From Amphibalanus amphitrite (taxonomy: Eukaryota > Arthropoda > Thecostraca > Balanomorpha > Balanidae), in contig NW_024883016.1 in NCBI RefSeq assembly GCF_019059575.1, positions 1-64,000 of the forward strand: DNA of 64,000 bases. The letters run 5' to 3'. Numbering within the stretch: the first letter of the stretch is position 1; every line of letters starts with the position of its first letter. Of this stretch, positions 20,835 to 58,796 are shown one piece after another. Below the pieces are notes generated by a model. That model saw only the letters and a program-made list of their open reading frames with translations, was not told where the DNA came from and made no database searches. The position numbers and the translations under genes are program-made.

Positions 20835-20911
20835 CCCCCGGACTCAACCCGTAGATCCGAACTTGTGGTGTGTTTGGTCTCAAGTTTGATTCTATGGGTG
20901 TAGGCCGGGGG
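20835..20911 (+). ncRNA. mir-100: mir-100 precursor hairpin
   Basis: The mature 5p arm (20846-20867) starts AACCCGTAGATCCGAACT and matches the conserved bilaterian miR-100 over 22 nt. The 3p arm (about 20881-20902) starts CAAGTTTGATTCTATGGG and pairs with it with a few mismatches and wobbles. The stem is extended by CCCCCGG (20835-20841) pairing with CCGGGGG-type sequence at 20903-20911. The loop is about 13-15 nt. Position 9 is G, as in vertebrates, whereas Drosophila has A. miR-100 is the first member of the mir-100/let-7/mir-125 cluster, which controls developmental timing through post-transcriptional repression. Downstream on the same strand lie let-7 and mir-125. Confidence 0.97.
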
Positions 20912-21959
20912 TCGCTGTCTTCAGGGCGGCGCGTCGCCTCCTTTGTTCTCGGACGCACGTGCTGGTTCGTTGGCGTCGGTAGTGCTCGAAAATTGGTGCC
21001 GTGCGCTGTTGGTAAGCCTGGAACTGGTCAGGAGTGAGTGAATAGCGCCTTTTTTATCTATGTTTGTGTTTTAGACGTTATCATTGTAACTTTTAGTGGC
21101 TATCATTCAAATTATTTAGGCGAATCGAAATCGTGTGCCTGTTGAATGCTAACTTTCGCGTTGAACAGAAGATGTACCTAAGTGTATTGTGTGATAGTTA
21201 TGCCCTGAAATGGTGCAATCATTGATTTACGAAAAAACAAATTTGTTGTGTTTAAAAACTGCAAATACACGTAAAATTCCACGATATTCAGAATTTGAGG
21301 TCAGGTGATGGTGATGATTCACAACGCCATGTAGGTTGCAGAATCAAGTAGCGTGCATTGCATTCAGCTGTTGTTTCAAACACACGAATTCGATATCGTA
21401 TGCTCTTCCTGCGGCTAGTGATTTCAGAAATCAGAATTACCGGTGCATTTATATCTCCCATTTCCGTATGATAGCTGCTCGAGGTTCGGATCTTCTAGAG
21501 CGCATGCTCTTTTGTGTGCTGGCTTTTCTCACTAGACCTGAAAACTTTTGATTGTAGACATTGCAAACGTTTAAAGAGCCATGATAAATAGTCCCCTGTA
21601 AATGTTGTTTTTTTTTTTTTAGTGCGGTGCGAGTACCAGCTTCCAGAAAACGTACTTCAAACAGAGAGCGTATTTGGTGGCTAGTCCCAGAGGAAGACGA
21701 ACTGCAAACCGCAGAAATATATTATACGGTTTACTTCTTATAGTAGTTAGTTCTTTGGACGACATTCACCGTACCAGGTCAACAGTTGTACCCCAATAAA
21801 CTTTTTCCATTCGCCATTTTCCTAAAATCTTACTTCTCCGCAGGCCTAGCCAGGTTGGTTACAAATGTCACCCACGACCTTCTGCGTTTTAATTTTGGCT
21901 GCTTATATTTTACTTTATTTTTTATCACGAACTGAATTATTTCTTAAAATGAAAGAACC

Positions 21960-22635
21960 GAATGCTGTCGTGGTCTTCTGAAGACACGCCGGCCCGTCGT
22001 GGCGACGTGGCGCTCACACGCATCACGTGCCGGGGACGTGCGGCGGCCATCTTTGCGGCGCCGGCTCCCCGCTCCCGCTGGCAGCCGGCGCTCCCCTCGC
22101 CGTTCTCCCGGCTCACCTCTCTCCCCTCTCCCCTGTCCTCTCTCCCCTCTCCCTGTCCTCTCCTCTCCGGTCGCTCCTCGGTCCCGGAGAGCCGCCTGCC
22201 GAGAGCTAATAACGCCTCACATACGGCGTGGGAAGCGAACCGGATTGATTTCCGACGGGAGATGATTTGAACATACGCGGCTTAAAACTGTTTGCAGCTG
22301 TTTATCTGCTCTGCGTGGCAGCAGCAGCCGTCACACCTTCCTTCTGGCCTACCTGGGGTCGCCCCTGTGACGGGTGGCCCGTTTTTGGCGTCCTCAGTGC
22401 GCCCCTGCCGACGTCTGTCTAGACGAGGCGGCGGCCGGCGCGGCGCGCGCTAGTTTTTGCCACCGGGCCGGCCTGGCGCGGCCGGCCGACCGACGCGCGC
22501 GCGCGGAGGAAGGGCGCGCCCGAGCCGGACACGTGGTCACAGACGGGCTGAGACACCGTCACCGCAGCCCTACCGGCCGCCCGGCACCCACCGACCCTTC
22601 ATATCGATCATGGACTTCGAGAGATCGTCCGTGAT
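21960..22635. promoter_or_regulatory. CpG-dense patches with E-boxes
   Basis: Two CpG-dense stretches (about 21985-22210 and 22370-22600) lie 1.1-1.7 kb downstream of mir-100. CACGTG occurs at 22024-22029 and about 22529-22534, and GGCGGCCATCTTTG, a YY1-like site, at about 22041. A pyrimidine tract (CTCTCCCCT repeats) runs at 22115-22175. No protein motif was recognised, and the function is not known. Confidence 0.25.
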
Positions 22636-22858
22636 TCGCAGGTTTTAGTTACGAAATCGTCTCAAAAGCAGGGCGAGAAATTTGAAAGGGGATGATATAA
22701 AAGTAAGTTGTTTTATGACAAAGCCCAGGTACACTAAGTCAAAAAGGAATTTGTTGCTGTGTTTGACAGCGGTCCATTGCATTCGTACTACGCCTGGGCT
22801 TCTTCATGATACGGTCCAACGGAACAGGATGAGCGGTTAAGAACGCAACTGTTGCTCA

Positions 22859-23120
22859 CATAGGCGCGGGAGCCGGGGGGGGGGCAGTGGGGGCAGCCTG
22901 CCCCCCCCAACTCTGGGGCCGTGGGGGCGGTGCCCCCACAGCTTTGAGACGGAATACCACACTTTTTTGCAAATGTTTTCTTTTTTTGTTGAAAAGGCCG
23001 AGGGGTGAAAAATAAGTGGCCTAAAACCGGTGAGAAAACTAGATTTGGGGGTACCTTAGGTTGTTCTCTATTATGGTGTGCCCCCCCCCCCCCAGTCGGA
23101 AAGTAGTTCCCGCGCCCCTG
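22859..23120. mobile_element. hAT-type MITE, 262 bp
   Basis: GTTGCTCA flanks both sides (22851-22858 and 23121-23128), an 8-bp target duplication. The left end CATAGGCGCGGGAGCC and reverse complement of the right end CAGGGGCGCGGGAACT are imperfect inverted repeats with the CA(G)GGGCG start common in hAT elements. The interior has G- and C-homopolymers and a pseudo-palindromic GGGGGCAG/CTGCCCCCC block. Noncoding. Confidence 0.75.
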
Positions 23121-23128
23121 GTTGCTCA

Positions 23129-24018
23129 TATGATTTTATCTTTCCGGACAGACTGTGTGACTGTTGTTGATTCAGCCAAGAGCGTTATTCCGCAAGAGTA
23201 ATTAGTAAAATATGTATAAACATTTCCATAGAGACAATTTCATGTTCTCAGTAGGCACAGGAATATGCAGCAAAAGTTGTGTCACGTGTCAGTCAGTTAA
23301 AACCGTTCTGATGTCCCCAAGTTCGTAGGTAAGTGACAATAAACTTGATATGCAACCACACGTAGTCACTCCTTCATTTCCATCTGAAGAGGACTCTCCT
23401 CGCGAGGACTAGAGAATATTGAAGAGGACTGAAGAGGACTCAGCAGCACCGTCAGCTCTCGCCACTATAACCGTCGGGTGTCGAACCGGACGTGCTTTCG
23501 CCCGCCGCCGGCCGCCGCGCCGGCTGCGGCCGCCGACCTGCCCCACGCATATGCGTGGTGCGCCGCCGTCCTGCGCACGCACTCAACGTCTGCAGTGGCG
23601 GTCTGCAGCGGGGGGGGGACTGACCTACCCCACTGGCTGCGTGCTGCACGACAGCAGGTGGGAGGGAGGGGAGGGGAGGGAGGGACGCTCCGCAACAGTC
23701 GCCGAGATTGGGTGGGTGTGGAGAGAAATGAGACGGAGGATCTCAGCCGGTGTGAGGTCCTCACTGGGAGTGGGATGCCTCGCGGAAACGCAGATGATGT
23801 TAGAAAACGCACGGATTATTATAAATGCGTTTAGTTCAGATTTGCATTGGCATTAGGATATAAGCAGCCTGTATGTCAGTAATACAGTAATACAGAAGCC
23901 TATGTCATTAGCCACGTGGTGAAGGTACACGTTGCATTGAAACAGAAACTTCTCTCTTGCTGTGAAATTATTTGAGACCAACGGATGATGCATGCAGACA
24001 ACAATATGAGATTACATA
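23129..24018. other. no gene recognised; GC-rich patch
   Basis: A GC-rich stretch at about 23460-23700 carries overlapping open frames on both strands with no motif. The rest is ordinary AT-rich sequence. Confidence 0.4.
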
Positions 24019-24997
24019 CCGGGTGTCCCAAAAGTAAGGTCATCATTTGTTTTGGCCACACTGCCAAAAATACGCGATGGATAGATATAAATAGGACATC
24101 ATATGAAAGAGCATTTTATAAAATTTTATTCTGACATACATATGAGTCAATACATTGGCTCGTAGCCCCACATTTGCTGCTTTTCTACATGGCTACCATT
24201 TCGGGCCGCGTGCATGAATAGACTACGTTTGACTTCCTCCACTATTCTGGAGCGATTCTCTGGTGAGATGCCGCCTATGTTTGCTCGAAGGGATCATCCT
24301 TTAGTTCTTCCCGGCTCGTTGGGTTGTCCTAAAAGACAATCTTTCTGTTGTGTATCCAGAGAATAAAAATATGAAGGTGTAACGTCAGGTGACCGCGGAG
24401 GCCATTCAATGGCGTTGCCCTGACTGAAAATTACGGGATCTCACATCCACTCTCGGAGACAATTGCATGATCTTCAGGACGGTGCAAGCATAGTCTCCAT
24501 CCTGCTGAAACCACTGCTGGCTGATGGTGTCGGCACAGCTGCGTTGCGACGAGCGGAAGAACCACTGGGAGGACTCTCGGCCACCTCTCTTGATTTACTG
24601 TCACCCGATTCCCGCTGTCGTCCTCAGGACCTCGAAGCACAGGTGGCTAAGTATACATGCCCTGTGCGTACATTATACCTTTTTCTGACGTTTTACCGGT
24701 TGAGGCGAAACTATGCATGAGTTCAGAGATAGGGCGAGCTGCTAGGGTCTGCTTAGGGCCGAAAACTGGGCGGTATTTACCCTTTGTTTTAATGACGGAC
24801 CCTCTTTAAGAGTTGAATTTCGACCTTCTCAGTTTTATGCCTACTGCTCGGTGTAGTTATGATCAAAAATGGTTTAAGCATGCAATAAAATAATTTTATG
24901 GATGTACCTTGCACGTGTTAAAATTGGAAGTGATTCGGACTCTTACTTCTCGAGATATTTAAGTTTTAAATCATGACCTTACTTTTGGGACACCCGG
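24019..24997. mobile_element. Tc1/mariner-superfamily element, 979 bp, decayed
   Basis: Perfect 25-bp terminal inverted repeats begin CCGGGTGTCCCAAAAGTAAG and are flanked by TA at 24017-24018 and 24998-24999. The interior retains a minus-strand transposase relic (separate entry). The size, below the usual 1.2-1.3 kb, and the stops indicate an internally deleted, inactive copy. The intact ends could still be mobilised by a full-length relative. Confidence 0.88.
24121..24640 (-). pseudogene. DDE transposase relic (Tc1/mariner superfamily)
   Basis: Reading the minus strand, fragments line up in order with the C-terminal half of mariner-like transposases: VTVNQERW, then WFQQDG carrying the second catalytic aspartate, then after a frameshift AIEWPPRSPDVTPSYFYSL (the usual IEWPPRSPDLTP motif), a stop codon, and SPENRSRIVEEVKRS ending near GSHVEKQ. 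At least one frameshift and one in-frame stop make it nonfunctional. The N-terminal DNA-binding domain and the first catalytic aspartate are not visible. The match comes from known family motifs read by eye. Confidence 0.8.
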
Positions 24998-25489
24998 TAG
25001 ATGGTAGAATATCAAGATTCAAACATGTTTCTTCTTGATGTTCCGTTATGTCTCCAAGACCGATATGTCTAAAATTACTTCTACCTTTGTGTTACCACAC
25101 AAGCTGATGCAATTTTGCGGAGACTGACACGGTATGTGCTCTGAAGCGTGATTTATGCGGATTGTCCGCTTGGCACCGCTAGTTTCGATATGTAATCCCT
25201 GTTATGTAGCTGAGATACGATGCGCCGGTCATTCCTTTGATCTGGGCGCCCAGCATGTAATCCGCCTCTCACTTTGTCATTACCTGTGCGTTCCGTTCGT
25301 TTGTTTCTATAGGTAGGAACGGGTAAGTACAGACAGAGTAACTTGCTTGTCATGCAACTTGCTTGATAACAAAAGATGCCACAACAGAACCGCTTTCTGA
25401 CACATACCCTCGCATTGGGACTAGTCCTGACATTTCAGTGATGGCTAGTCAAAAAGAATGAATCGTTGAGTGAATGCACCGTTCAGTCA

Positions 25490-25745
25490 TTTTCCATCCC
25501 CAGGACCTCCATGTATCGAACCTCCGATCCGGGCTGGACGGTCACCTTCATCGGGCGTGAGTAGCTCCTCAGGAGCAGGCTGATGTGAGGTGGGGTGACC
25601 GTTAACGGGGCTGGGTGGCCTGTCCATCGTGACGGGCTCAGCCCCGGCGGTGCACCAGGCTGGCCAGTGTCTCCACTGATTCCTTTCATCCTTCCGGCAG
25701 TGCAAAGGTCTCATCAGACCGAAAGGACCTAACACTAGAAAAATA
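25490..25745 (+). repeat. SINE-like dispersed repeat copy
   Basis: Shares GTGACCGTTAACGGGGCTGG, GGCTCAGCCCCGGCG and the terminal GACCGAAAGGACCTAAC with the copies at 36.5-37.0 kb (same strand) and 58.05-58.39 kb (opposite strand). Confidence 0.6.
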
Positions 25746-25899
25746 TAAGCAAAGAAATAACTTAACACTGGGTAAATGAATGAGCGTCGAAAGTTTGACC
25801 TTCCAGGACCACTCATATACCTAATGATTCTTTCCATACAAGAAGAGGCTAACCTATGGAGCTCAACTTAACTTACATCGAAAACTCCGATGAAAACAT

Positions 25900-26372: not shown

Positions 26373-26456
26373 GTTACCGGGGCTCGCGCTCACAGTCCGT
26401 GGCATATACAGACCAGTAACCGCCACGCACTTTTAGAACGTGGATCGCTCATGATT

Positions 26457-26481
26457 GTTCAATACAATACAATACAATACA
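26457..26481. repeat. short (ATACA)n microsatellite
   Basis: About four and a half copies of the pentamer ATACA/TACAA lie 85 bp downstream of the LINE fragment. Confidence 0.85.
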
Positions 26482-29400: not shown

Positions 29401-29627
29401 CAGGTTATACGCTACCACATTGCTTCCATCATTTAAGGAGCCCCTTGTTCTCCTCCACTCTGCTGTGTGTAAAGACGAACTTTGACATGAAGCCGGGAAC
29501 ACTTAGGAAACTAAGTGGGTAACTATGCATTAGTGACACGGATAGATCCATGGCGCCATTTAAATACCACCGATCTAGCTCAATTCGTCGCAGCTCGTGT
29601 CATATAGAGCCTCGCTAATGTCGGCTC
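26482..29627. other. no gene recognised between LINE fragment and let-7
   Basis: AT-rich sequence with short open frames only. A duplicated TCCCGTCGGCATTTT lies at about 26870-26897. A primary let-7 transcript would be expected to cross this region, but no exon boundary could be identified with confidence. Confidence 0.4.
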
Positions 29628-29693
29628 GGAGGTGAGGTAGTAGGTTGTATAGTTGTGATCTGAACAAACTGTACACTCGGCTGCCTCACCTCC
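29628..29693 (+). ncRNA. let-7: let-7 precursor hairpin
   Basis: The 22-nt mature arm at 29633-29654 starts TGAGGTAGTAGGTTGTATAG and is identical to canonical let-7. The opposite arm (29669-29690, starting CTGTACACTCGGCTGCC) pairs with it. GGAGGTGAGGTAG (29628-29640) pairs fully, with one G-U, with CTGCCTCACCTCC (29681-29693). Internal mismatches are limited to about two positions. The loop is short, about 12-14 nt, compared with many let-7 precursors. let-7 represses heterochronic targets at the juvenile-to-adult transition. It lies 8.8 kb downstream of mir-100 and 26.1 kb upstream of mir-125 on the same strand, suggesting one primary transcript. Confidence 0.98.
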
Positions 29694-30755
29694 CGTGTTA
29701 TCGTCCGCTGGAGCACAGCGTCTCCGCCGACTGTGGTCCGGATCGGAGAGACGGAGGGTCGTACGTCAAGAAACAGCTACGAGAGGTGACGAACATCAGC
29801 TCGACTGTCGTAACTGCGCGGCCGTCTCTAGGGACTGGAAACTGAAGAATACACTCGGTGCTGAATGGCGGCGCTAAATAAACTCGGTGCTGAATGGTGG
29901 AAGGATTTTACCTTCAAAGTGACAGTGGAGTGTGCAGTTGGTGAGAAAGCGCTGCTTTTGTGTGTGCATTATGTGCGCATCGAGGAACAAACGTTTTGTC
30001 ATACTACATACACTCTATTATTTGTGGTGGTAGGGCGTGATTATGGCTTTACGTTTAGCACGGATAGTACTGGCCACGTATTACGTAGGCATATAATTGC
30101 ACACTAATTTGTTGCTACATTTATTTTACCGTTATTGTTTTGCTTTATGAGTTTTGTTATTTGTAAATGAAGCATGTCTTCCTGCAATAATGAGTTTTGA
30201 GACGATGGGTGTTTTGTGCCCTGAAACTACCCTAGGGTCTAGACTGGTGGACTCCGGTGAGCGTTGCAACGTGTGCCTATTTCTGAGAGGCTGAACAAAT
30301 TGCGTACGCCGTGTGCCCTGAATAGCCTGACCAACATCCCTCAACAATCTAAGAAGATCGCTGAACGATCAGCCTGGCCCTACATTCGCCGTGGATGATC
30401 GTCTCAGCGAGAGCTCATTTGGCGCAACTATCGTAGTACCCCGTGGGTGTTGTACGCAACACAGCCTTTTGGTGATCGGCGGCGTTCATTGGCAATCCGT
30501 AGTTACTACAGTATGGTGACCGTCCTGTGCACTGTGCAGAGTCCATGGTGTCTGACCGATGGATATCCATCGATGTCCGCATGACCACCGTCCAGGCGTC
30601 ACGAATAACCGTCGTGTGACCGTTGTGCGTACGTTGTATGACAATGGTGATGACCATTGTCGCACTGTGACTGATGCCTTTCAAATGACCGAATCGGTCG
30701 TCATCCACTCGATGGGCGTAGCAATGATCGTTTACTGCTCTGAGGATCCAAGTGA
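29694..30755. other. no gene recognised downstream of let-7
   Basis: No coding motif. A short perfect stem (GACAATGG/CCATTGTC) lies at 30640-30661, within a stretch rich in GTGACC/GACCGT words. Confidence 0.4.
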
Positions 30756-31075: not shown

Positions 31076-31702
31076 CAAAGTGACCCCTTATTTAGTGACC
31101 GCAGTGCGTATGAGACAGAGCTCCCTCCCTGGTGTGGGTCCGCTCAGCGTAGCTGTCATACATTTTACATACAGCACCGGCGGGGCTACATTGTTTGGTT
31201 ACCGACAGACGGGTCTGGAAAGACATCGCCTAGTCAGACAGCAAGCCAGACGCCTGGCGTACATGGTTCATGTACTTAGGTCTCACCAGAACTAAGGGTA
31301 AGGGGATGGTGGCCTTCAGAGTATTCCGATTGCTTAATGTTACCTGATATCAGTCCTCTTCCGCTTCCGATTCAGCTTCAAAAATACAATATCCCTGAAA
31401 ACGCATGGATCAGGTACTAAATTGGCCACGAGATAACACACAAATAACCCTAGTTCAGTTTTGTGCGTGCTGTGCGTGCATGGAACTGTTGAAATACCCA
31501 CGCATGTTTGTGAAGGTCCAGGTGAATGAATACCTTCTCCAACGTTATTTCTAAATTCTACCACCGTTATACCTTCCGCCTGTTTCCTCTTGGCACGACG
31601 CACACTGGGCCGGGGGTCCGGAAAAGTGCTAGAAATTATTTGTGATTGAGTTGTTGATCTCAGTGACAAGCAAACATGCTAAAAACGAAGTGGGGCTGCT
31701 TA

Positions 31703-32400
31703 ACCCTCGCCGGACCTATTGTCGGACCCCCCACCCCCTCAGCCGGCCGAGGGGGGAGGGTTGGTACGACCCCTTTTTGCCGTTTCGCCCCTAATGGAGC
31801 TAGAGCCTCGCGGAAAAAACAAGCGTGTGCGCCGTTTCAAGGCGGAACGATTGATATCCGATTTTAAGGTCCCAGGTCAACCGGTAACCTCTGAGGTGAA
31901 GTCAAAAAGCCCAAGGTAGGGTTCGGTTTTTGGCAAATAATTTCGCAAAAAATGGCCGCAGAGCAGCGATTTTGGCACCATCGTGTTCGCCTGGCTCAGG
32001 CGCGTCGAATGGTATACTTTTTGTTCGGGTGAGGTCAACTTAAGGTATTGACCTCGAGTCAAGGTCAGTTCAGAGCCCATCAGGCCACGAACTTAATCGA
32101 AGGAGGTCGTATCGCATATCATTCGATTCGGGAGGTCTTCCCGAGTCCATTGGTGGCTTTCCCGAGTCGCTGGCTCAATTTGATCATGAGTTATTGACGA
32201 GAAACTCCTATGACCGGTGTGACGTCATAAATGACGTCACGGAAGGTCAAAAATGCAAAAGTAAAGCATCGGATCTTGCAAGGAGTGCACGAAATCACGA
32301 TTCCGTGTGCTTGAGATAGTTTGAAATCATTCCATGCGCAAAAACAACAGTTTCCTTATTTCCCCTTTCACTTTTAATGGTGAGGTCACGTGACCTCGAA
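31703..32400. mobile_element. piggyBac-like element (subfamily B), 3'-truncated
   Basis: Follows TTAA at 31699-31702 with CCCTCGCCGGACCTATTG, the same start as the reverse complement of 38270-39306. Homology to that copy continues through the GGTCAACTTAAGGTATTGACC segment (the empty site for the nested insertion at 10.4 kb) and the double CRE near 32220-32243. It fades near 32400, before the second terminal repeat. Confidence 0.65.
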
Positions 32401-32900
32401 GAGTAGCAGGCATTAGCAAAAATTGCGAGTAGGGCATGACAGAAAGATGATTGGTGGTTTGTATGGCATGGCCATTTTTAACGGCTCGAAATAACATTTC
32501 TCAAAAAGTCTAGCTAAAGAGCAAGTTGTTGTTGATTATCACTGACTTGTGTTTAGGGGTTAATAATGACTGAATTTTTGAGTTTGGCCCAGAAATGTTG
32601 ACAGCATTGTGTGCGTTGATCAATTCTGAGCTCAGGGACATGTATTTCATTTAGATTATAAGCGTTTGTTTTTCACAACTTCCAGCGTTTTAAAGAGCGC
32701 CGGGCCTTCAGTAGAGCGGCGAGGTGACAATTGCCCCTACATCATGTGGTTTACTGGCGCATATCTCGAAAAGTAGCAGGGAAAAGCAGCAAAGCACCTA
32801 TATGGAACAAAAGATGAGTAATCAGAGGCTAGTATGAAATGTTCATTTTTAGCTGCTCGAAATAACGTTTTTATAAAAGTCTAATTAAAAAATTGGATAT
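32400..32900. repeat. diverged direct repeat, about 140 bp twice
   Basis: The block starting CTCGAAGAGTAGCAGG (about 32397) is repeated starting CTCGAAAAGTAGCAGG (about 32767). Each is followed about 100 bp later by GCTCGAAATAACRTTT and AAAAGTCTA. Origin unknown, probably a mobile element. Confidence 0.55.
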
Positions 32901-35046
32901 GATTTTAAATTACGTCTTGCAGCTGCTTGCAAACAGCTAGCTTATCTTGCAGAAAAGCGATGCAATATGTCAGAATGATGTTGGCACAGTGAACAACAGT
33001 GCCCTAAACTAGTCTGACAGGAAATTTCGTTCAAAACGACGATTGGTCAACTAATAAATTACCACTAAAGATCATCAATAAAATCGGTAAATGTGGTGGC
33101 CTATAGAGAGTCTAAATTGTTTTGTGTTTGGTGACAACTGACGACCTCAATTTTGACCTTAGGGCAAAACTAGCATCGGAATCGTATTCTTCGATCAATT
33201 TGGATTAAATGATACCTATTTTGTTCATATTGCGGACAGTCAGTTTGGGGGAATTTCTAGCGCTTTTTCAGGCTGCCGGCCTACAGTGCGACGGCAGCGT
33301 TAGCTACTCGTCCTAGTCCGTAGCAGAAGCTTCAATTTACTCTCCTAGATGGCGCTAGTAGTAGACGCCTGAAGCTAGACTGTGCCGCACGACAGCCGTT
33401 TCCCATCCCGTCCCATAGATGGCAGCAGCAGCGTATGTCTGAAGCCAGCGCGTGAGAGTCGCAGCAGTTTGGTACAAAACACGGGTTGGAATTCAATGGG
33501 GACTCAGCAAAGACAGCGAATAGTGCAAAACATTTGTCAAATTGTAAGCGATATGCTCGTAAGCATAGGTATTGAAACGACGGGTGTTTTGTTATGCGAC
33601 GCTTGAAAACTGGAACGTTAGATGCATTGCATCCCAGGCATGCTATGCGATCAATCTATTCAATAATTACTTGAAAATTGCAACCCCATTTCGGTTACAT
33701 GACTATGATTGTAGTTCAATATGAGGATTTCGTATATCAAGTCAATTTCAATGTCATCCTTTGATAAGGTATTGGAATGGGACGATGCAATCGTCGATGT
33801 AAACTGGCGGCACCAATAGCTTTTGTTGTTGTTTTTATTAAGCCTCGTCTTCTGTCTCATGCTTACTGTCCCCCCCCCCCTCCCACCTTAGGAGTGACAG
33901 TATGGCGCCTTTGGCTTTGACAACCTCTGCGTAGTGTATTCAAGTAACGGCCCACGAATAACGAGCGTTAGATTCTCCAACCGAATAGGCTCACAGAAAG
34001 ACTTGAAGCCAAGCAATGTCGACTCCAATTCCCGGCAACAGTTTCAATTTCGACTGACTCCGACTCCGACGCCGGCTTCTACACCGACTTCGACTTTGAC
34101 TCCGACTCCGAAATCACAGCCCTGGCTCTCAGTAGTGGCAATTCTTCACTATATATTCCTACATGCCGGGGTATGTCTTAAGCACAGCACGAGCCGGGCA
34201 GTAAAACTATGACCAAGAAACTGTCGGTGTCAAAATGCCAAGTTATTTGATAGGCCGGGCAGGAAACAAAAGTTTACTGCCTGGGTTTACTGCCCAGGGC
34301 AATGACCTCTGAACTATAGAGCTTATCGCATTAGCCCACCCAGGGAACGTATAATTGACATCATTATTGCATGATATTTGCATGGCAAAATTAGAAAACT
34401 AACATTTTTGGTAAAAAATATCTGCTTTGCTAATAAAGGGCTTTGAAATATTTTGTAGTGGTTACAAAGCCAAAATTATGCTTAGATATGCGCCTATTTA
34501 CCGAAATCCATTATCGCTTGTTGTCTTATCTTCGTTTTATATGTACATCGTTTCCTTGGGCCTACGTTTATTTATTTATTGAGTTATTATTTGATAGTTG
34601 TATAGTCCTTTCCTCGAAACAAACATGTAAAATATGGAAAATATAATGCATTTCACGAACGTTTTGCCATAGGACATCAATACAGCACGATTACATATAT
34701 AAAGCAAAGATTTTTGCAAGAAGACTGGAAAATTCACGTTTAATCACTAGGAATAGTACACCTTCTTCTTGTTCTTATGTCGTGACAAATCATCCATGCA
34801 TTATGTTCCTTGGATATCCAATTGTTGTGCCATTCTGATGTAGGTAATATTTTCATAGACGATTCCGTTTGAAGTAAGGTATTTTGATGCATTTTCTTCG
34901 ATGAATTTCCTTCAAAGCTTTATCCACAGCAGTAGCGCAATCATTGTTAGGAAATTATGGAAAAAAAACAATTGTATAAGTGTCACCAAAACCAGTCAAA
35001 ACATTTTTATAGGTATGCGGCATGTAGGAAAAATCTTACTGACCTC
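32901..35046. other. no gene recognised; GACTCC MITE fragment at 34020-34123
   Basis: Mostly AT-rich. TAGATGGCGCTAG (33349-33361) and TAGATGGCAGC (33416-33426) resemble CTCF core motifs. At 34020-34123 a piece of the GACTCC family ends in CACAGCCCTGG; its other end is not clear. Confidence 0.4.
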
Positions 35047-37020: not shown

Positions 37021-38265
37021 AACCAATAAACAATGTCAGAAAAGCTCATAAAGGGAGACTAAGTGGGGCATCATTGTGTCTCGGTTTATGGGGAAGCAGA
37101 TCATATTTTTACAAGTTTATTGTGAAATGTACATTTGAAGGATTCGCATGCATGTCATGAACGTTTATCAGGCCTATCAAAGTTTTCCTGAGTTCATTGC
37201 TCATATTGAATACCACATGAAGGTTACGGCCGGGTATTTTATCTATTTAAACGTTGAGAACCGCGCATTACCGACGATTCAGTTGAACGAGTTGGTAGTC
37301 TGACGTTCAGATAGTGCCGAGAGCCGTTCATTTGAAACTTTGGCGTCTCATCTCTACACGTGACCTGAGTCTTCTGAGCCGGGAATAAATTCAGCACGCC
37401 AGTGAGCAAACACGCGAGCAGCCCAGAGGGCCCGTATTGGGGCCACCTGGCTGGCCCCGGGTTGGATATTTGCATCACAAATGGACACTATTTCTAACTG
37501 CTGTGGAATAGAAGAATGAATCATAACATACTGAAGCATAAGACAACAAGTTCTCTTTTGTTATGTTTGCAAATTCTTGGCACGAAAAAGCAAGCATCGT
37601 ATAAAACAGTATGCAAAATTGTTCTAAACCGACTTTCTGTTGGTGCATAGCATGCATGCATAATATGTATATAATTATATATTGTCACACTTAGTACCTA
37701 TCTGACGTGGTCTAGGAATCTTCAAAGTCATAAATCTTACATGTTAACAGCTGTCGATACGGACGACAGGGGAGTGTACCTGCGCTCAGAAGCAAAAAAC
37801 ACCAAAACGACACCTGACTGAGATCGGTTTGACAAGTACCCTGGGTTTGACAGCCCCGGTGCTGAATTATATTTGCTATGCCAGATGCCATGTGACCAAG
37901 ATAGCCATTGCAGCCCCAACTGACTCCTTAGCTATATATGTATGTGGTGACCAGAGAAGAGTGAACGCCCATCGGTGGCGGCCGAGTCGCGACCTTTCCA
38001 ACTATAGCTGAGCCGTCACAATCGAAAAGGTCACCGCCGACGGCCGGAAGGGGTCACCGGGTCAATGGTGTCCATATACCAGGCAGAAATAGGACTCTGG
38101 ACCACCCATGTCAACTGCAATTCAGTCCAATGTTTAGCTCCGGCGTGTGATTACACTTGATTTGAGGACATCTCATCTATTGCAAAAAGATTATGCTGAA
38201 AAACATATGCAGCCGAATAAAATTAGTCCATAATTGTGCGCAGCATTTCTCTTTGTGAGGTGGAT
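37021..38265. other. no gene recognised
   Basis: Only short frames without motifs. Ordinary composition. Confidence 0.4.
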
Positions 38266-38269
38266 TTAA

Positions 38270-39306
38270 CCCTCGCCGGCCGAGGGGGGGGGGCGGGTGC
38301 CGCCCCCCCCCCCATAGGGTTTTTTCGCGATAGCTCCGAACACACTGGCGATAGAAAGCTGAAACTTGGCATACCTGACCTTTGCTCCAAGCCGCATCTT
38401 TTGATACCAACCGCATTTTTGGGTCAGGTCAGGTCACTGACCTATGACGTCATAAGTGAACCTCTGCACGGTCTTCAGATGTCGCAACTTCGCAACGCCC
38501 TCACTGCCAGAGGAGATGTCACAGGGAAATGAAACTTGCAGGATCTAGTATCCATTATGAGTCCCACAACTTGTATATCTCGGATTTTTCCTAAAGGTCA
38601 TATGAGGTCAGGTCATTTTCGTGACCTCACCATTATAAGTCAATGGGGAAAAATTCAAACTGCTATTCTGGCGCCGGGAACGATCTCCAACTATCTCAAG
38701 CACACAGAATCGTGATTTTATGCACTCCTTGCAAGGTTAGATGCGTCACTTTTGCAATGTTGACCTTGCGTGACGTCATTTATGACGTCATCAAGGTCAT
38801 ATTAGTTTTTCGTCAATAACTCTTGATCAGATTGAGCTAGCGAGTCGGGAAAGCCACCAATGGACTCAGGAAGACCTGCCGAATCGAATGATATGCGACA
38901 TGACCTCATTCGACCAATTTCGTGACCTGGGGGTGCTGACCTGACCTTGACCTGAGGTCAACACCCCAAGTTGACCTGACCCGGACAAAAAGTATAGCAT
39001 TCGACGCGCCTGAGCGAGACGAGCACGATGCTACCAAAATCGGCGCTCTGAGGCCGTTTTTTGCGAAGTTGTTCACCAAAAACTGAACCATACCTTGAAG
39101 CACTTGACCTGACCTCAGAGGTCACCGGTTGACCTAGGACCTTAAAATCGGGTACCAATCTCTGCGACTCGTAACGGCGCACACGCTCGTTTTTTTCCGC
39201 GACGCGCTAGCTCCACCAGGGGCGAAACGGCGAGGGGGGGTCGTACCCGCCCCCCCCCCCCCCCTCGGCCGGAGCGTATGTAGAAAACCAATAGGTCCGG
39301 CGAGGG
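38270..39306. mobile_element. piggyBac-like element (subfamily B), full length, 1037 bp
   Basis: TTAA lies at both edges (38266-38269 and 39307-39310) and both ends are CCCTCGCCGG reading inward. This is the most complete copy and defines the subfamily. Sequence is antiparallel to the copies at 10097 and 31703. The interior is noncoding. It has G/C homopolymers near each end, a perfect AGGTCACTGACCT palindrome at 38431-38443, further GGTCAGGTCA runs and paired TGACGTCA sites around 38772-38790. It probably depends on a transposase encoded elsewhere. Confidence 0.75.
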
Positions 39307-39462
39307 TTAATAAAATGTCGTACCTGCATTGATATTCATCAAGAGACAGAAAGGCTCAAAGAGACTAGAAAGTTAAAAAAATTTTGGGCTGCTTTGGCCT
39401 TCACATTTTTAGCTACTTTTCCAAAATAAGATGTAGAACTCACCCACGTTTTTTTTAGTAAA

Positions 39463-40330: not shown

Positions 40331-42433
40331 ATGTCGTGCCAGGCCGCTCACCCTCCGCTGTTACCTTCTCTGCAGACATCCCTCCTGCTGCTGCAGGTGG
40401 TGGTGGTGCTGCTGTCAAACAGCCTGCTGCCGAATATTGCTGCTGGGAGCGTTTCAACGAATCCCAGGGGGGCGCTGGTTCGTGGGACAGCTTTTTGGAA
40501 TGACTCTGAACTCATCTCGTGGGACACTGCCGAGCGACCTAAGAAGAGGCTTACGTCAGATGTCTGTGATGACATTAGCGACACCCAGACCCCTGGCTGC
40601 GTCCTAACATCCGCACCCAACATATCCCTCGTACCCTCCACCAACGAACATTCCACGTTGAAGTTAAAATCAAACATCAGTCAGCTGTCACGCATCCTGA
40701 TGAAGATCTGCAATGACGAAGATGTTGTTCTGGTAAAGGACGCTCCTCTGTTCCCTGACGCGTCTGAAGATAACAGTGCTGCAGCGGTGACCGAGCCCGC
40801 CGGCCTCTGGTCGCTGCTGAGTCGTCACAGCCGCTCTGTACAGCTAGTGGAACTGAAGGACAACATTCTACCATCGGCACCACACGCCCAAGCCATCACC
40901 GTGCGACACGCTACAGCCAGGGTCTGCATCTTCTGGCTGCGGGACGCCACCTGGAGTCACCTGGATCCGGACGACCCCGAGACGTTTGTGGACGGCTGGG
41001 GCACCCGCTGCCGCCGGCTGGTGGTGGTCGAGAGTCGCCGCGAGCCGGACGCCTCGGCCGTGACGCGTCTGGTGAGGTACAGCCACGCGCAGACGATCTC
41101 GTCTCTGCTGGTAGGCGAAGGAGGAGCAGATGACGTTCAGGTGCTGGGACACAGTATCGACTGCGTGCGTCAGCAGATGGAGCCGAGGGTTCTGTTCGAC
41201 TCGCGGCAGGCGCGGCAGTCGGCGGGGCCGCTCTACGTGAGGAACCGGGCGCTTCTGCAAGGCCACCATCTGCGAGTAGCCTCTACAGTGGACTCTGACA
41301 CCCCGTACATCACTGTCGACCCCAACAACCCGGATGATCTCATAGGTGTCGAGGCTGAGATGCTGCGCACTGTGTCGGCTGCTCTGGGCTTCAGCTACAC
41401 ACTGCTGAAGCCGGCCAGTACGGACGGTCTGTTCGGCTCTCAGCGTCCGGACGGGTCGTGGACGGGCGTTATTGGGCTGATTGTTGAAGGCGAGGCAGAT
41501 ATGGCGGTCGGGGATATCTCGGTGACGCTGGAGCGCAGCGCCGCCGTCGACTACGTGTACCCGTTCCACATCGAGCCGGTGTCGTTCTTCATGCTGCGCC
41601 CGGCGGCGCTGCCGCGCTGGCTGGTGATCGCGGCGCCGTTCGACGCCTCCACGTGGCTGCTGCTGCTGCTGGCGCTGCTGTCTATTGTTTTCACCCTGCG
41701 ACTGCTGGGTGTGACCGCCTCCTGCGCGGTGGGCGCCGCCTGGGCGGCCCTGATGCGGCAGACGATACAGCTGCGACCGCCGCTGGGCACCGGCTTGGCC
41801 CACCGGCTCCTGCTGGGTGCCTGGCTGGCCTTCTGTCTGACGCTGACCATCTGCTACCAGACGCTGCTGACCTCTCAGCTGTCCGTGCCGCAGTACCCGG
41901 CGCCCATCGACAGCCTCAAACAGCTGGCGCTCTCCCCGTACCGTGCCCAGGCTGCACACAAAATCGCCGTCAGCCAGTACCTGGAGACGTTCCGCGGCAC
42001 CAACTCTGTCATGGCGCGGATCCCGGAGAAACTGAGCTTCTTCGGGGTGGAGAACCGCCTGCGGGGGCTGCCCATCAGGTCCGACACCGCCTACATCGAG
42101 GAACTGGCCATGCTGCGACGCGAGGTGGCCGACCGACCCAACGGCGAGCGCTACTACATCTCCAAGGCGCGCTTCTACCTGACGGGCCTGGCGTGGCCGA
42201 TCCGTGCGGGGGCGTGCTTCCGGCCGCTGCTGGACCGCGCCGTGCTGCGCCTGCTGCAGGCCGGCCTGGTCCAGCACTGGATGTACGAGGACGTGCACGC
42301 TGCTGACGACCACGCCACCGCCCAGCCGCTGACCGTGGATGACCTCAGCGCGGCCTTCCTGGCGCTGGCGGCCGGCGCCGGCCTGGCCACCGTCAGCTTC
42401 CTCCTGGAGGTGGCGCTGGGGAAACGACGCTGA
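40331..42433 (+). CDS. divergent ionotropic receptor (iGluR-related chemoreceptor), intronless
   Basis: A 700-residue single-exon frame. Residues 1-40 form a signal peptide with a leucine/valine-rich core. An N-terminal region without a recognised fold (about 41-310) follows. Then S1 of the ligand-binding domain (about 312-430: HLRVAST, GVEAEMLRTVS, the motif GDISVTLERSAAVDYVYPF with its conserved arginine). TM1 is about 442-462, the pore loop about 463-490 (not SYTANLAAF-like), TM3 about 492-514 leading into SQLSVPQYPAPI, S2 about 515-655, and TM4 about 672-695. This is the order of ionotropic glutamate receptors, and the divergent pore and S2 motifs are typical of chemosensory IRs in arthropods, which act as cation channels in sensory dendrites. 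Length fits the family. Coding GC is high. The start at 40331 places the signal peptide at the N-terminus. No AATAAA is seen in the following 340 bp. It lies between let-7 and mir-125 on their strand. Confidence 0.88.
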   Translation: MSCQAAHPPLLPSLQTSLLLLQVVVVLLSNSLLPNIAAGSVSTNPRGALVRGTAFWNDSELISWDTAERPKKRLTSDVCDDISDTQTPGCVLTSAPNISLVPSTNEHSTLKLKSNISQLSRILMKICNDEDVVLVKDAPLFPDASEDNSAAAVTEPAGLWSLLSRHSRSVQLVELKDNILPSAPHAQAITVRHATARVCIFWLRDATWSHLDPDDPETFVDGWGTRCRRLVVVESRREPDASAVTRLVRYSHAQTISSLLVGEGGADDVQVLGHSIDCVRQQMEPRVLFDSRQARQSAGPLYVRNRALLQGHHLRVASTVDSDTPYITVDPNNPDDLIGVEAEMLRTVSAALGFSYTLLKPASTDGLFGSQRPDGSWTGVIGLIVEGEADMAVGDISVTLERSAAVDYVYPFHIEPVSFFMLRPAALPRWLVIAAPFDASTWLLLLLALLSIVFTLRLLGVTASCAVGAAWAALMRQTIQLRPPLGTGLAHRLLLGAWLAFCLTLTICYQTLLTSQLSVPQYPAPIDSLKQLALSPYRAQAAHKIAVSQYLETFRGTNSVMARIPEKLSFFGVENRLRGLPIRSDTAYIEELAMLRREVADRPNGERYYISKARFYLTGLAWPIRAGACFRPLLDRAVLRLLQAGLVQHWMYEDVHAADDHATAQPLTVDDLSAAFLALAAGAGLATVSFLLEVALGKRR

Positions 42434-46631: not shown

Positions 46632-46633
46632 TA

Positions 46634-48177: not shown

Positions 48178-48183
48178 TGCTCA

Positions 48184-50870: not shown

Positions 50871-51092
50871 TTCATTTGTATCAAAGGAGCATGGATTAGT
50901 GATTGCCCTATAAAGTTGAAGCTTGGTGACACCTTCAACAGGCATGTGGCTCGACACCATCAGATGCTCTTGGAACACACATGGAACCGTTTTAGACAAA
51001 GCTGCAGAATGCAGATTGATGATGACGGGCGCGACGAGCTGAATATGGAGCTCTCCCAACTCGCCCGTCTGAGTCCAAAAGAGATTGAATAG
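50871..51092 (+). pseudogene. upstream frame of LINE fragment
   Basis: A + frame reads GAWISDCPIKLKLGDTFNRH and continues through MLLEHTWNRF to a stop at 51090-51092, just out of phase with the RNase H frame that follows. It is probably the same retrotransposon ORF split by a frameshift, but this segment has no diagnostic motif. Confidence 0.4.
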
Positions 51093-52221
51093 TACCAGCA
51101 TGCGGCTGCTGGAGAAGGGAGAGCCGGAGCTGGCAGTACGGGCCAAGGAGCTGGCAGGCCGGGAGTATGGACGCCTGACGCGACTCCCTCCGGACGATCC
51201 CGCTCGGCAGCTCATTGATAAGACACCGCCACCTAGACTGCAGTACAGAGCCCACCTCCATTGGATGCGAAAGAAACAGGAAGCCCAGGAGGTGGGAGTG
51301 CCGGCGCCGTCGCCGCCAGATGAGGACGTTGCTGGCCTCCAGCATCGACCCTGTTTCCGACGAGTGGGGAAGTGGGTGTGCGAGGAAGCTGGACTGGGTG
51401 GAGTGCTCGTAGCCCCACTAACACTGCACCAGGGAGAACCACCGTGGAAGCAGTACAACACCAACGTCCACTTCGGCTTGAAGCTTCCGAAACCTACCAA
51501 GAGGACTGACCCACCAGAATTACGGAAGACTGCAACCCTGGAGGCCCTGGCCGCCTACCCAAATCAAGACCTCACAATCTGGTCTGATGGATCTGCCCTA
51601 GACGGTACCAAGAAAGGCGGCGGAGGAGCCCTCCTCGAACTGCACCGTGAGGGACGCAAGATCAAATGTACCATACCGGCAGATGTCGTATGCAGCAGCA
51701 TGCAGGCGGAGCTGGCGGCGATGTCGGAGGCGATAAAATGTTTCCTGGGACTGCCGGAGCCATCCCTCGCTGCCATTCAGTCTGTCCTGCTCTGCTCGGA
51801 CTCCCTGTCCGGCCTCCAACTGCTCAGCCGAGGCCCGGCAGCGCAGGAATCGGCCGTGACACAGGGTATCTGGGCTCTCCTGCACTCTGCCGCGGCCGGG
51901 GGCAGAGCTATCAGTCCCCAGTGGATCCCGGGCCACGCGGGGGTCGAGGGTAATAAAGAAGCGGACCGCCTAGCAAACATCGCGGCAACATCAGGCGACC
52001 AGCGTCGGATCCCAGTTGACCTGGCCTGTGCACGCATCGCCATCAGACACTGGGCCGGCCGGCTCACCCTCGATCGCTCCAAGCATCACCCACATCTGGA
52101 GAACACCCCTGGCCACGACGACCTCGACCGATGGGGACAGACCACTGTCTCGCAGATCCGCAGCGGCTGCTCACCCCTGGAAACTGCTGACGATGAAGCG
52201 ATGCTGTATGATCAGTTCTAG
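51085..52221 (+). CDS. non-LTR retrotransposon ORF2 fragment with RNase H domain
   Basis: 378 codons, with the first used codon (TTG) not a credible start. Residues about 1-60 resemble the C-terminal end of a LINE reverse transcriptase region. Residues about 163-300 are an RNase H domain with its four acidic residues: D168 (WSDGS), E209 (QAELAAM), D239 (CSDSLS) and D294 (GNKEADRL), with WIPGHAGVEGN just before the last. The post-RNase H motif TTVSQIRSGCSPL follows. RNase H removes the RNA strand during retrotransposition in I- and R1-type LINEs. The reverse transcriptase core, the endonuclease and the C-terminal zinc finger are missing, so it is a 5'- and 3'-truncated relic, with the domain still intact. 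Upstream frame is at 50871-51092. Confidence 0.85.
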   Translation: MNSTSMRLLEKGEPELAVRAKELAGREYGRLTRLPPDDPARQLIDKTPPPRLQYRAHLHWMRKKQEAQEVGVPAPSPPDEDVAGLQHRPCFRRVGKWVCEEAGLGGVLVAPLTLHQGEPPWKQYNTNVHFGLKLPKPTKRTDPPELRKTATLEALAAYPNQDLTIWSDGSALDGTKKGGGGALLELHREGRKIKCTIPADVVCSSMQAELAAMSEAIKCFLGLPEPSLAAIQSVLLCSDSLSGLQLLSRGPAAQESAVTQGIWALLHSAAAGGRAISPQWIPGHAGVEGNKEADRLANIAATSGDQRRIPVDLACARIAIRHWAGRLTLDRSKHHPHLENTPGHDDLDRWGQTTVSQIRSGCSPLETADDEAMLYDQF

Positions 52222-53552
52222 ATATGATTACACACCATTACACAACGGCACCAATGCCTGTTACCAAAATTGTCCCTTTGAAAGGTGGCACTTTGGAAAA
52301 GTGACACTTGCTTTCTGGCTTTTCTATATGAACTAGGCCCTGCTCTCTGCCCTACTGTCACATCTCTGAGCCTGGCCGCCGTGTTTTCCGGCGTTCCGTC
52401 GGTTCCCTGCGGCTCGTCTGTACCGTGCCCGCCTCCCAGCGGGGTCCGATGAACCCCTCTCCTCTCCAGGTGGACACCCCTCCGAAAACCCGCCGTTTTT
52501 GTCAGTGAATCGGCCCGTTTTTGCAGCCCCAGTCCAGCGGCGACGGTTGGGGCGCGGTCAGCATTCTGGCCCTCCTTCCTCTGTAATTCTGTGTTTTGTG
52601 TACGGATCAGCTGCATCTAGCGCTAAAGCCTACCACATACTAAAGTCCATCGTCATCGCAAACGCGGTAACCTCTAAGAAAAGTGTTAAACTTCTGGGAA
52701 GTCCAGCTACATGCTACTCCCGCGCTTTTCTATGTTAGGTGGTCCCACTCTTTTCTAGACAGCTGGCACGCTTCCCTCATGTGCTCTAGGATTCGATCCC
52801 GAGTGCTACGATCTGCATTCGTATGCTGGCTGCTTTTACACATCCATCAAGATTCCAAGAGACGGGAAAAAACCTTTTCCTGCATTCTTTAGCTGATTGA
52901 TCCGTTGTGTTGTTAGAAGTAGTGAACAACGGAGCAGCCCTCGAAACGTATTGCTCAGTTAAGCTCCCTTAAAACCGTTCAACGGTCGCATCGCGCCCAA
53001 GGCCGTCAGCCCTCCAATCTCATGAGCCTTTGCCGGGCCATCCGTTCCCGCCAAAATGCTCTCCTCTCTAACCCTTGCTTTGACGTAGACCCCTCCAACC
53101 TCCTTCCCAGCAGATGCTCCATGTGTGCCCTCTCCCCGTTTGTTGTGTTCGTTCCGCCTTGTTCCCCCGCGCCCCGGCACTCCGGCTACAGCGCCGACGG
53201 CGTTTTTGCGAAAACGTTTTAAATGCGGTTGGTATGCGTGCCTTGTTTTTGTTGACGTCGAGTTGAATGAGCCACAGCCTTCGCGCCACTGTCGCATCTG
53301 AGCCGAAACCGTCCCCGGGGCTCCGCGCCGGCCTCGTCGCAGCTGCGCCACCTCAAAAGTTCGCTCACGTCGTTCCGTGAGAGAAAAGTATCCAACTGGT
53401 GGGTTTGATGACGAAAGGGTGAGAAAGGCGCTGTGTGATTTTGGGTAGAGTGGGTCTGTAGCATGGAGGAAGGCTAATTAAGAAGCAGCTGTCGTATTTT
53501 ATCGGATTTGAATGGTTAGCTACAGTTGGGGGTTATGGCACGTTAGGAGCTG
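52222..53552. other. no gene recognised
   Basis: Mixed composition. A moderately GC-rich stretch at 52960-53350 has open frames on both strands without motifs. Confidence 0.35.
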
Positions 53553-53560
53553 TTCGAATT

Positions 53561-54880
53561 GGACGCCATTTAATTGCGTCCCAGAAAAGCTATTTCTGGC
53601 ACCTAAAAGCTGACTCGCCCCAAAATTGGTCCTCAGCACCTATTTGGTGGATACCAGCACCAATCATGGAAAATGACCTTAATTAGCTGTTTCTGGCACC
53701 TATTCATCGGTACGCCTTACTCTTTTTTCTGAATCTGGCACCTAAATGCTGAGCGTAGCACCAATCTAGTAGAAAAATGAACTACTGGCTGGTAGAATCA
53801 TGTTGTTCTGGTATAATGACCCCTGGAGTCTAGCCTAAAGGTTGCCAGTGCAGCTACACTCTAAGACAGCCCCGTAGTGATCTCAGCATTGTATATGACG
53901 TTTAAGTAAGCAAATAATATTGATAGAATTGATTTGTTTGAAAAAAACAATGTCATTTAAATATTTTAAATTATTTATTTGTAATGCTTAAAGGGAAACA
54001 TTTTTGTGAGTAATTGCCTCGATTTTGACCATTAAAACGGGTATTGTATTTTTTGACGTCATCAAATAGCTCCAAAAAAGAAATGTAATGTTTTCATTCC
54101 GTTCAAGGCCGCTGAAGAAACGCGAGATCTTTTGCGTGGGACATTGTCCGTTGTTTGCCGCGCAGAGTTGTGCCGTGGTTGTGCCTTTTTCATCCGTTTC
54201 TTACTTATGTGTGCATGAAGCTTTGATTTTGTTTTTGGTTATTGTGTGGCCGGTCAGTCAAACGCCCCTGTAGAAACCGGATGCTGCGTTTGATCGAGAT
54301 GGAGTCAGACGATGATTGCAGAAAGCTAATAATATTGAAAAGAGGGCCGGTTGCGTGGCATGTCTGTTCAGAGTTGACATTTTGCTTTACTCCAGTTTAT
54401 GACCTGAGAGCCTGGCTGGAAGTGACGGATCCAAACTTTTCACGTTAAAATGGCTGAGGGTGCAATAATCTCTAGTCTCTACATAGCGGGCTGGTATAGG
54501 AGCGTCTTGCTATGCTGCGCCATAGCTGGCTAGTGATTCTCTTTTGGCTAGAAATGGCATTAATCATTATCTCCACTGGCAAAAATGGCACTTGACATCA
54601 CCGAATGCAACGTTCATGTTTGTTAGGATACATAAAATCAGGAAGATTATGCGAATTAGGTAGGCAAACGTGGAATAAAATAGGTGCTGGATGTTTTGGT
54701 TTTGGTGCTGAATCAGCAAACAGCAAATACGGAGTTCAACTAGACGATCTGGCAACTTTAGGCTGTGTGGAAGCAATTAGGTGCCAGATTCAGATATTAG
54801 GGTCGAATAAGCATTTTGGGGCTGATCAGCAATTAGGTGCCAGAAACAGCTTTTTAGGGACCAGAAACAAATATTCCCCG
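53561..54880. mobile_element. DNA element with repeat-built inverted ends, 1.32 kb
   Basis: TTCGAATT (within a shared GTTCGAATTG) flanks both sides at 53553-53560 and 54881-54888. The left end has TTTCTGGCACCTAAAAGCTGA-type words at about 53592, 53691 and 53733. The right end has their reverse complements (AATTAGGTGCCAGAAACAG) at about 54832, 54776 and earlier. The interior is noncoding. The 8-bp flank suggests hAT, though the flank is itself palindromic, which weakens it as proof. Confidence 0.55.
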
Positions 54881-55149
54881 TTCGAATTGAACCAGTGCAC
54901 TTAACAGCCTAACAAAATCCATCGTGGAGAGACAGCGCCATGTTTTGGGATAGAGAATGACCTACATGATTTCATAAACCTGTTTTTACGTGTTACGCTT
55001 TGCGTTCTTGTCGATTCCATTTGTTCAGTCCCCTTGTCAGGCAAATGTCCATTTCCACTCGTGGTGTATGGAGCTGAAAGCCTCGCCTGTTCTCCGGTTC
55101 GATGGTCTCGTGCCCCCTAAACCCCTCTAACACCCAACCATCCCGCCGA

Positions 55150-55510
55150 TCTGCCCTCGCCAGGGTCTGTCTGGTATGACCCGGGCCGGTCCGGTCTGCG
55201 AGGACCCAGATCTGGTCCCAGGTGCCCCGGAGCGGCGCGTCGGCCTCGGTCGGCACGCCGCCGCCAAAAACTCTCCCGGCTCCGAGCATCGATCCTCTGT
55301 TTTTGCCGCAGGAGGAAAAACCCGGCGGCCGTGGCAACAGCTGAGCGGAGCGGGACGGTCAGCGCCCCGGCGGCCGCGCCGCCGATCGGCGCAGCGCGCC
55401 ACGAACGCCACGGTGCGCCACAGAACGCCACCGCTCCGCCGAACGCCGCACGGCACCACGTAACGCCACTTGGCGCCACGGAAAGCCAGCTGACGCCGCG
55501 CAATAAAACA
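55150..55510. promoter_or_regulatory. CpG-dense patch upstream of mir-125
   Basis: High CpG density ending 240 bp before mir-125, with overlapping frames on both strands and repeated CGCCACGGTGCGCCACAG-like words. No motif was recognised. It could be an internal promoter or an exon of the primary transcript. Confidence 0.25.
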
Positions 55511-55744
55511 CCGCAGCATTGACAAGCATGGCGACAGAGGCATGACAGAGGTCCAACTTGTTATCTAATGACTTTTAAGCTAGCTCGCGAAAATCATGGC
55601 GACTAGGGCATAAAGAGGCTAGTTTTAGGTACCTATCTGGTAAGTGGTGGTAGATATCTGTCACTTAGTCGTGAAGAGCTACATGATTGACTGTAGAACC
55701 CATTCAATGATTTGCCCTGTGCCACTTACGTCACAAAACCGTCT

Positions 55745-55808
55745 CCCCTTCCCTGAGACCCTTGAATGTGAGATTTAATACGTCACAGCTAAGGGACTCG
55801 GGACTGGG
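55745..55808 (+). ncRNA. mir-125: mir-125 (lin-4 family) precursor hairpin, divergent 3' half
   Basis: The 5p arm at 55750-55771 starts TCCCTGAGACCCT, identical to miR-125 over its first 13 nt including the seed. It then reads TGAATGTGA where canonical miR-125 has AACTTGTGA. The 3p arm (about 55783-55805, starting TCACAGCTAAGGGACTC) pairs with it: CCC with GGG, GAG with CTC, CCCTT with AAGGG, TGTGA with TCACA. There is a bulged T, one A-A mismatch and a small internal loop; the apical loop is 11 nt. Order and strand after mir-100 and let-7 match the conserved cluster. The divergent 3' half leaves a chance of a paralogue or other lin-4 family member, but position favours mir-125. A CRE and AGGTCA pair follow at 55826-55850. 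Confidence 0.86.
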
Positions 55809-55825
55809 CGTCGGCTAGTCTACGG

Positions 55826-58787: not shown

Positions 58788-58796
58788 TTTATACAC

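Follow-up and report, generated by a model that had tools for sequence, protein, structure and literature searches.

In the let-7-Complex of Drosophila, the hairpins of three microRNAs (mir-100, let-7, and mir-125) are carried on one primary transcript (PMC3462697). In human, mir-100 lies 5.7 kb upstream and mir-125b-1 47 kb downstream of let-7a-2, all within one host long non-coding RNA (lncRNA) (PMC11955196), and this host, MIR100HG, in addition encloses the BLID coding region (PMC9544809). The crustacean Parhyale has a mir-100/let-7 cluster of 9.3 kb on one lncRNA, for which its authors report mir-125 as not found (PMC5111886). Similarly, mir-125 was not found in Strigamia (PMC4244043), it lies on another scaffold in Diabrotica (PMC9170749), and nematodes and flatworms broke up the mir-100/let-7/mir-125 cluster, according to one of the papers cited here. 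The spider Parasteatoda has one complete cluster plus an extra mir-100 and an extra mir-125 on other scaffolds, with no second let-7 reported (PMC4987109), and the authors of that paper allow for assembly artefacts in the case of these copies. Here, we analyze a let-7 complex in the barnacle Amphibalanus amphitrite. It lies in a window of 64,000 nucleotides, the beginning of contig NW_024883016.1 (C1519:1-64000), which we compared with the whole genome assembly (807,550,619 bases in 2644 contigs). Most likely, the complex in the window is one of a pair of paralogues in this species, which would descend from a common ancestral mir-100/let-7/mir-125 unit. Among the papers listed in searches of the open-licence literature, none describes a barnacle let-7 complex.

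Three hairpins on two colinear contigs

A sequence-only reading of the window had placed mir-100, let-7, and mir-125 in the ancestral order on one strand, with gaps of 8.8 and 26.1 kb between them, and both claims were borne out by position and folding. All three hairpins are on the + strand, at 20838..20910 (mir-100), 29627..29695 (let-7), and 55743..55811 (mir-125), and their mature sequences start at 20846, 29633, and 55750, which gives start-to-start distances of 8,787 bases (mir-100 to let-7) and 26,117 bases (let-7 to mir-125). The let-7 mature (29633-29653) is an exact match to the query. The mir-100 mature, on the 5p arm (20846-20867, AACCCGTAGATCCGAACTTGTG), has one mismatch to the query form and is identical, letter for letter, to dvi-mir-100 of PMC9170749. 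The mir-125 hairpin is a divergent copy, whose mature-like sequence (55750-55771, TCCCTGAGACCCTTGAATGTGA) has four mismatches to the query TCCCTGAGACCCTAACTTGTGA. When the window was searched with five mature queries at up to four mismatches, nothing was found beyond these three sites, except that the mir-10 query fell on the mir-100 site. As assessed by folding against shuffled sequences, z is -5.8 for mir-100, -5.4 for let-7, and -3.2 for mir-125, with only -2.6 for a longer stretch around mir-125. In comparisons with Rfam families, mir-100 scores 51.9 bits against the mir-10 family RF00104, which exceeds the gathering cut-off of 47.5, and let-7 scores 47.0 bits against RF00027 (E 9e-9 in a 351-base slice), under the gathering cut-off of 53.5.

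The exact let-7 21-mer occurs at two sites in the genome, one in the window and the other at C1485:22290. The contig harboring this second site (C1485, 134,001 bases) is colinear with C1519, in blocks that are mostly 81-98% identical, with a few at about 71-76%. Its three matures, at 10428 (mir-100), 22290 (let-7), and 44515 (mir-125), are identical to those of the window and have the same order and strand. C1485 is most likely the other haplotype of C1519. In a published A. amphitrite assembly, DNA of two individuals was combined (PMC8270832), and if such pooling applies here too, the two contigs need not stem from one animal. Between the matures there are 11,840 and 22,204 bases on C1485 versus 8,765 and 26,096 bases in the window, and only 7,272 bases of the mir-100/let-7 gap (gap 1) and 14,648 bases of the let-7/mir-125 gap (gap 2) are alignable, the remainder being present on a single contig. 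From one contig to the other, the hairpins are thus spaced differently by kilobases, and the part of the complex shared by both amounts to ∼21.9 kb.

The microRNA hairpins are constrained relative to their flanks. Substitution rates between C1519 and C1485 are 9.3% in gap 1 and 8.2% in gap 2, the latter including a receptor-like gene described below. The hairpins differ at 1/73 bases in mir-100 (just after the mature), 0/69 in let-7, and 0/69 in mir-125, i.e. at one base in 211. By comparison, the 20,905 fully aligned 69-nt segments outside the hairpins and the receptor gene show a mean of 8.3 differences, with 3.0% of them showing none. Three aligned segments drawn at random have a mean of 25.3 differences, and one difference or fewer was seen in 0.016% of 200,000 draws, a figure to be taken as a rank and not as a strict probability since neighboring segments are not independent. 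The mir-125 hairpin sits inside a 141-nt run that is identical on both contigs (55723-55863), the seventh longest listed for the scanned 58 kb, and let-7 lies inside an identical run of 102 nt.

A second complex with mir-100 and mir-125

To cover the genome for mir-125, we used a pattern in which five bases of the 3' part were free and one mismatch was allowed. This pattern has seven genomic sites, versus one for the reversed control. Four of the seven are mismatch-free, i.e. those in the window, on C1485, at C105:225620(+), and at C949:68472(-). One-mismatch sites on C109 and C585 were rejected, having no mir-125-like fold, and the third such site is on C1263. On C105 and C949, the mir-125 mature is TCCCTGAGACCCTTACTTGTGA, the common form, identical to dvi-mir-125 of PMC9170749. 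The mir-100 22-mer, searched with up to one mismatch, has four sites, all of them exact (none for the control), on the same four contigs: in the window, on C1485, at C105:146337(+), and at C949:147142(-). Both C105 and C949 therefore carry mir-100 and mir-125 in the same order and on the same strand, 79.3 and 78.7 kb apart, respectively. Their hairpins are identical and the surrounding sequences are 90.7% identical at mir-125 (over 1,955 columns) and 91.9% at mir-100 (over 1,323 columns); the two contigs look like haplotypes of one another. Among the matches listed in the open-licence literature, there is no second complex in which mir-100 and mir-125 are linked in order over 79 kb.

When the hairpins of the window are compared with those of C105, identity is 82% for mir-125 (66 nt, E 9e-11) and 80% for mir-100 (80 nt). 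No similarity adjoins these hairpins at E 1e-3, simple repeats excepted, and the other similarities between 11.1 kb of C105 and C1519 are scattered and look like shared repeats. Paralogous complexes that separated long ago would be expected to show this pattern. Homology to this second genomic locus is what identifies the hairpin of the window as a probable mir-125. The two matures are identical at 19/22 bases and differ at bases 15, 16, and 17, with the seed intact. A chance mir-125-like hairpin at 55750 was ruled out by this homology together with the constraint on the hairpin. In the open-licence literature, no paper was found for the variant mature under several spellings. The complex in the window had been called complete, which holds in that three hairpins are present, but its mir-125 is a divergent paralogue and the common mir-125 sits in the second complex.

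The exact let-7 21-mer is confined to the complex of the window, to which both of its genomic sites belong, and no let-7- or mir-100-like site with up to six mismatches was found in C105:216001-227141. As judged from the exact 21-mer search, the second complex may have lost let-7. We also considered that the hairpins of the window might be dead copies next to a compact cluster elsewhere in the genome, which the sequence-only reading had named as its own refutation, and rejected this because neither the exact let-7 sequence nor the patterns for mir-100 and mir-125 (one mismatch at most) revealed a compact cluster.

Insertions, nested gene, and invariant blocks

Among 22 stretches examined that do not align between C1519 and C1485, nine are simple one-sided insertions and 13 are complex. 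End duplications of 2 to 13 nt were found in 8/9 stretches tested; they were read from overlapping alignment ends, and the shortest could correspond to alignment ambiguity. Absent from C1485 are a 979-bp insertion in gap 1 (24019..24997), with a TA duplication and terminal inverted repeats of ∼30 bp, two insertions in gap 2, of 1688 bp (31601..33288, target duplication CGACG) and 1315 bp (53565..54879, 13-nt duplication with one mismatch), and a 260-bp insertion inside the complex with a 10-nt duplication, also with one mismatch. Conversely, insertions of 938 bp (TTAA duplication), 1808 bp (8-nt duplication and inverted ends), and 962 bp (GTTAT duplication) inside the complex are present only on C1485. 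By these marks, the TA, TTAA, and 8-nt cases are mariner-, piggyBac-, and hAT-like, respectively. Gap 2 also contains a retroelement remnant (51073..52221, + strand) with a Pfam RNase_H match (E 1.5e-13), and a repeat copy (38264..39315) whose orientation is opposite to that of another copy, at 31.8-32.4 kb, and which has a further copy elsewhere on C1485. A Pfam search of 10 open frames (nine of them in the gaps) and eight frames downstream gave no match at E 0.1. The gaps had been described as filled with transposable elements of at least six families; the insertions with empty sites and end duplications uphold this description in part. Single-contig insertions were rejected as the sole cause of the stretching, because 7.3 and 14.6 kb of the two gaps align on both contigs.

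As the sequence-only reading had proposed, a protein-coding gene lies within the gaps. It is an intact ionotropic glutamate-receptor-like gene between let-7 and mir-125 (40331..42433, + strand), a single open frame of ∼700 amino acids with the Pfam domains Lig_chan and Lig_chan-Glu_bd. Its protein has nine homologues with 39-73% identity, five of which are assigned to barnacles of the genera Pollicipes and Amphibalanus. The reading frame is uninterrupted on C1519 and C1485, and over 709 codons the nonsynonymous (dN) and synonymous (dS) divergences are 0.027 and 0.142, respectively, so that dN/dS is 0.19. One TGA inside the match on C1485 was taken, by its coordinates, as the frame's own end. 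The start codon is uncertain, since the first Met used is missing on C1485, where the frame extends further upstream.

Two runs of identical sequence stand upstream of hairpins. The longest run listed is a GC- and CpG-rich block of 270 nt (20523..20792), which ends 45 bases before the mir-100 hairpin; the observed/expected ratio of CpG is 1.42 in 20001-21000. This block is a candidate promoter or first exon of a host RNA. The other, a GC-rich run of 170 nt (55219..55388) located about 355 bases before the mir-125 hairpin, is a candidate separate promoter or exon. On C105, 500-nt bins of 69-75% GC lie directly upstream of mir-125. Upstream of the complex, 13414-13967 contains identical runs of 150, 215, and 183 nt in otherwise diverged DNA.

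Several features were noted outside the complex. A stretch absent from C1485 (16893-19464) consists of two 1228-nt arms in perfect inverted orientation, separated by a 116-nt spacer. Each arm holds much the same frame of ∼240 amino acids, which has no match in Pfam and which, by eye, we assume to be Penelope-like GIY-YIG. A 3536-bp insertion with an ACA duplication and inverted ends (9254-12789) is also absent from C1485. Arrays of short related tandem units (AAAAGATCGTA... and TACGTACTTTTG...) occupy 56850-63065. Further along, in C1519:120293-146273, identity between the two contigs is ∼90% at first, later 98.2%, and finally 99.6% along the terminal 18.7 kb.

Origin, transcription, and comparison with known complexes

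The best overall explanation, which we regard as probable, combines two paralogous complexes, an origin by whole-genome duplication, widening by transposable elements, and transcription from a host RNA. Thoracican barnacles are reported to have undergone a whole-genome duplication before they radiated (PMC11331182). The same paper describes, in Capitulum, a partial second Hox cluster with miR-993 and miR-10, and its main text does not mention let-7. The two complexes fit this event. The ancestral unit would have been doubled by it and then widened, at least partly by transposon insertion. The complex of the window would have retained mir-100, let-7, and a mir-125 that is identical in the seed and changed otherwise, and the second complex, which appears to be without an unchanged let-7, would have retained mir-100 and the common mir-125. 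The order and strand that mir-100 and mir-125 share with the window on C105 and C949 are as expected for an ohnologous pair. In the simplest reading, modeled on Parhyale (PMC5111886), the GC-rich invariant block before mir-100 would be the start of a non-coding host RNA that carries at least mir-100 and let-7. The receptor gene, on that strand too, would lie inside the host and be driven by a promoter of its own, comparable in its nested position to BLID within human MIR100HG, and mir-125 may be produced from the same long RNA and/or from its own promoter at ∼55.2 kb.

Several observations weigh against this explanation. The window's mir-125 scores 25.9 bits against Rfam RF03770, for which the gathering cut-off is 88, with an E value of 0.005 when a 351-base slice was searched and 0.16 when 12 kb were. 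Of 200 shuffles, 2 match the hairpin and 5 the longer stretch in folding. RF03770 is a poor judge here because the common-mature locus on C105 is itself not reported at E up to 0.5. Linkage of both complexes to a common duplicated block was unsupported in a test with one neighbor gene, whose close paralogue lies on C241 and C136 (95 and 94% to P0011) and not on C105 or C949; two further weak matches are on C241 and C789. Rearrangement after duplication could be the reason for this missing linkage. Finally, the part of the 79-kb mir-100/mir-125 interval of C105 that was read amounts to ∼10.8 kb, which leaves room for a variant let-7. The neighbor gene used in the linkage test, an open frame 57 kb past mir-125 (C1519:113005-113523, - strand), has small uncharacterised relatives, two of which, on different Pollicipes sequences, are a possible ohnologue pair.

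Some alternatives concern the identity of the copies. The mir-125 of the window could be a decaying pseudo-hairpin that has survived by chance while C105/C949 carry the functional copy, as three changed bases in the otherwise very conserved mature of the window and its weaker fold would have it. We consider this quite unlikely in view of the 69/69 bases that are the same on both contigs, where non-coding segments of that length average 8.3 differences, and of the long identical run in which the hairpin sits. It is more improbable still that C1485 is a recent segmental duplicate instead of the other haplotype. Although the gap divergence of 8.2-9.3% is high and identity is uneven, reaching 99.6% at its end, other loci such as C105/C949 are also paired at a like divergence, and an annotated A. 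amphitrite protein (P0008) matches C1283 at 100% and C349 at 96%. Other receptor genes also appear paired between contigs with like scores (C734/C168 and C989/C365, pairs judged by score), and the A. amphitrite genome is taken to be assembled with haplotypes apart. Moreover, barnacles can be hyperdiverse, with an average of 5.5% in coding regions of B. improvisus (PMC8270832).

Other alternatives bear on the duplication and on transcription. The two complexes could instead stem from a segmental duplication distinct from the barnacle whole-genome duplication, whether it came earlier or later, and no flanking gene was shown to be common to C1519 and C105. Such an origin is unlikely, although less so than the alternatives above, given the published barnacle-wide duplication and the neighbor gene's relatives on two Pollicipes sequences, as duplicated chromosomes would give. 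For transcription, one primary RNA of >35 kb might span all three hairpins with nothing split, in which case the block before mir-125 would be an exon or an enhancer. In its favor, both complexes have the same order and strand on each of the four contigs, and whole-cluster co-expression is tabulated for human MIR100HG (PMC7369991). On the other hand, that same source lists a predicted start of its own for human mir-125b-1, and a promoter of its own is suggested for mir-125 by the GC-rich invariant block 0.36 kb upstream in the window and by the GC-rich bins upstream on C105. On balance we lean, if not strongly, away from a single RNA.

If the two paralogous complexes do descend from the barnacle duplication, the let-7 complex may since have been divided, one locus holding let-7 and a new mir-125, unchanged in the seed but altered toward the 3' end, and the other the common mir-125 without let-7, a proposal we put forward tentatively and at slightly less than an even chance. 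If it is true, developmental-timing microRNAs could have come under separate control here, unlike in other animals, where they are expressed together, and this may be linked to the metamorphosis of barnacles. The barnacle complexes make co-regulation directly testable over the course of that transition. Tight spacing, which is evidently free to vary by kilobases, is separable from order and strand, which are kept on four contigs.

As a whole, the interpretation first drawn from the window is partly supported. The 35-kb spread that it took to be unusual is indeed wide next to the fly cluster, but it has a precedent in human. The Drosophila let-7-Complex is compact (a spacing taken from that first interpretation), whereas the complex of the window covers 35 kb. 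Parhyale is a crustacean like A. amphitrite, and mir-125, not found there, is present in the window. In the spider Parasteatoda the extra mir-100 and mir-125 are on separate scaffolds, whereas the second barnacle pair is linked on C105 and C949. Human MIR100HG (miR-100/let-7a-2/miR-125b-1) and MIR99AHG, in which the hairpins are intronic in an lncRNA, are like the window in order, wide spacing, and a coding region inside. Stretching itself is therefore not new, MIR100HG being the wider of the two and likewise enclosing a coding gene. Compared with MIR100HG, the window nests a receptor-like gene, its mir-125 is divergent, and the assembly has two contigs on which the complex is spaced differently. 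What is new is a complex that is duplicated, unequally resolved, and variable in its spacing.

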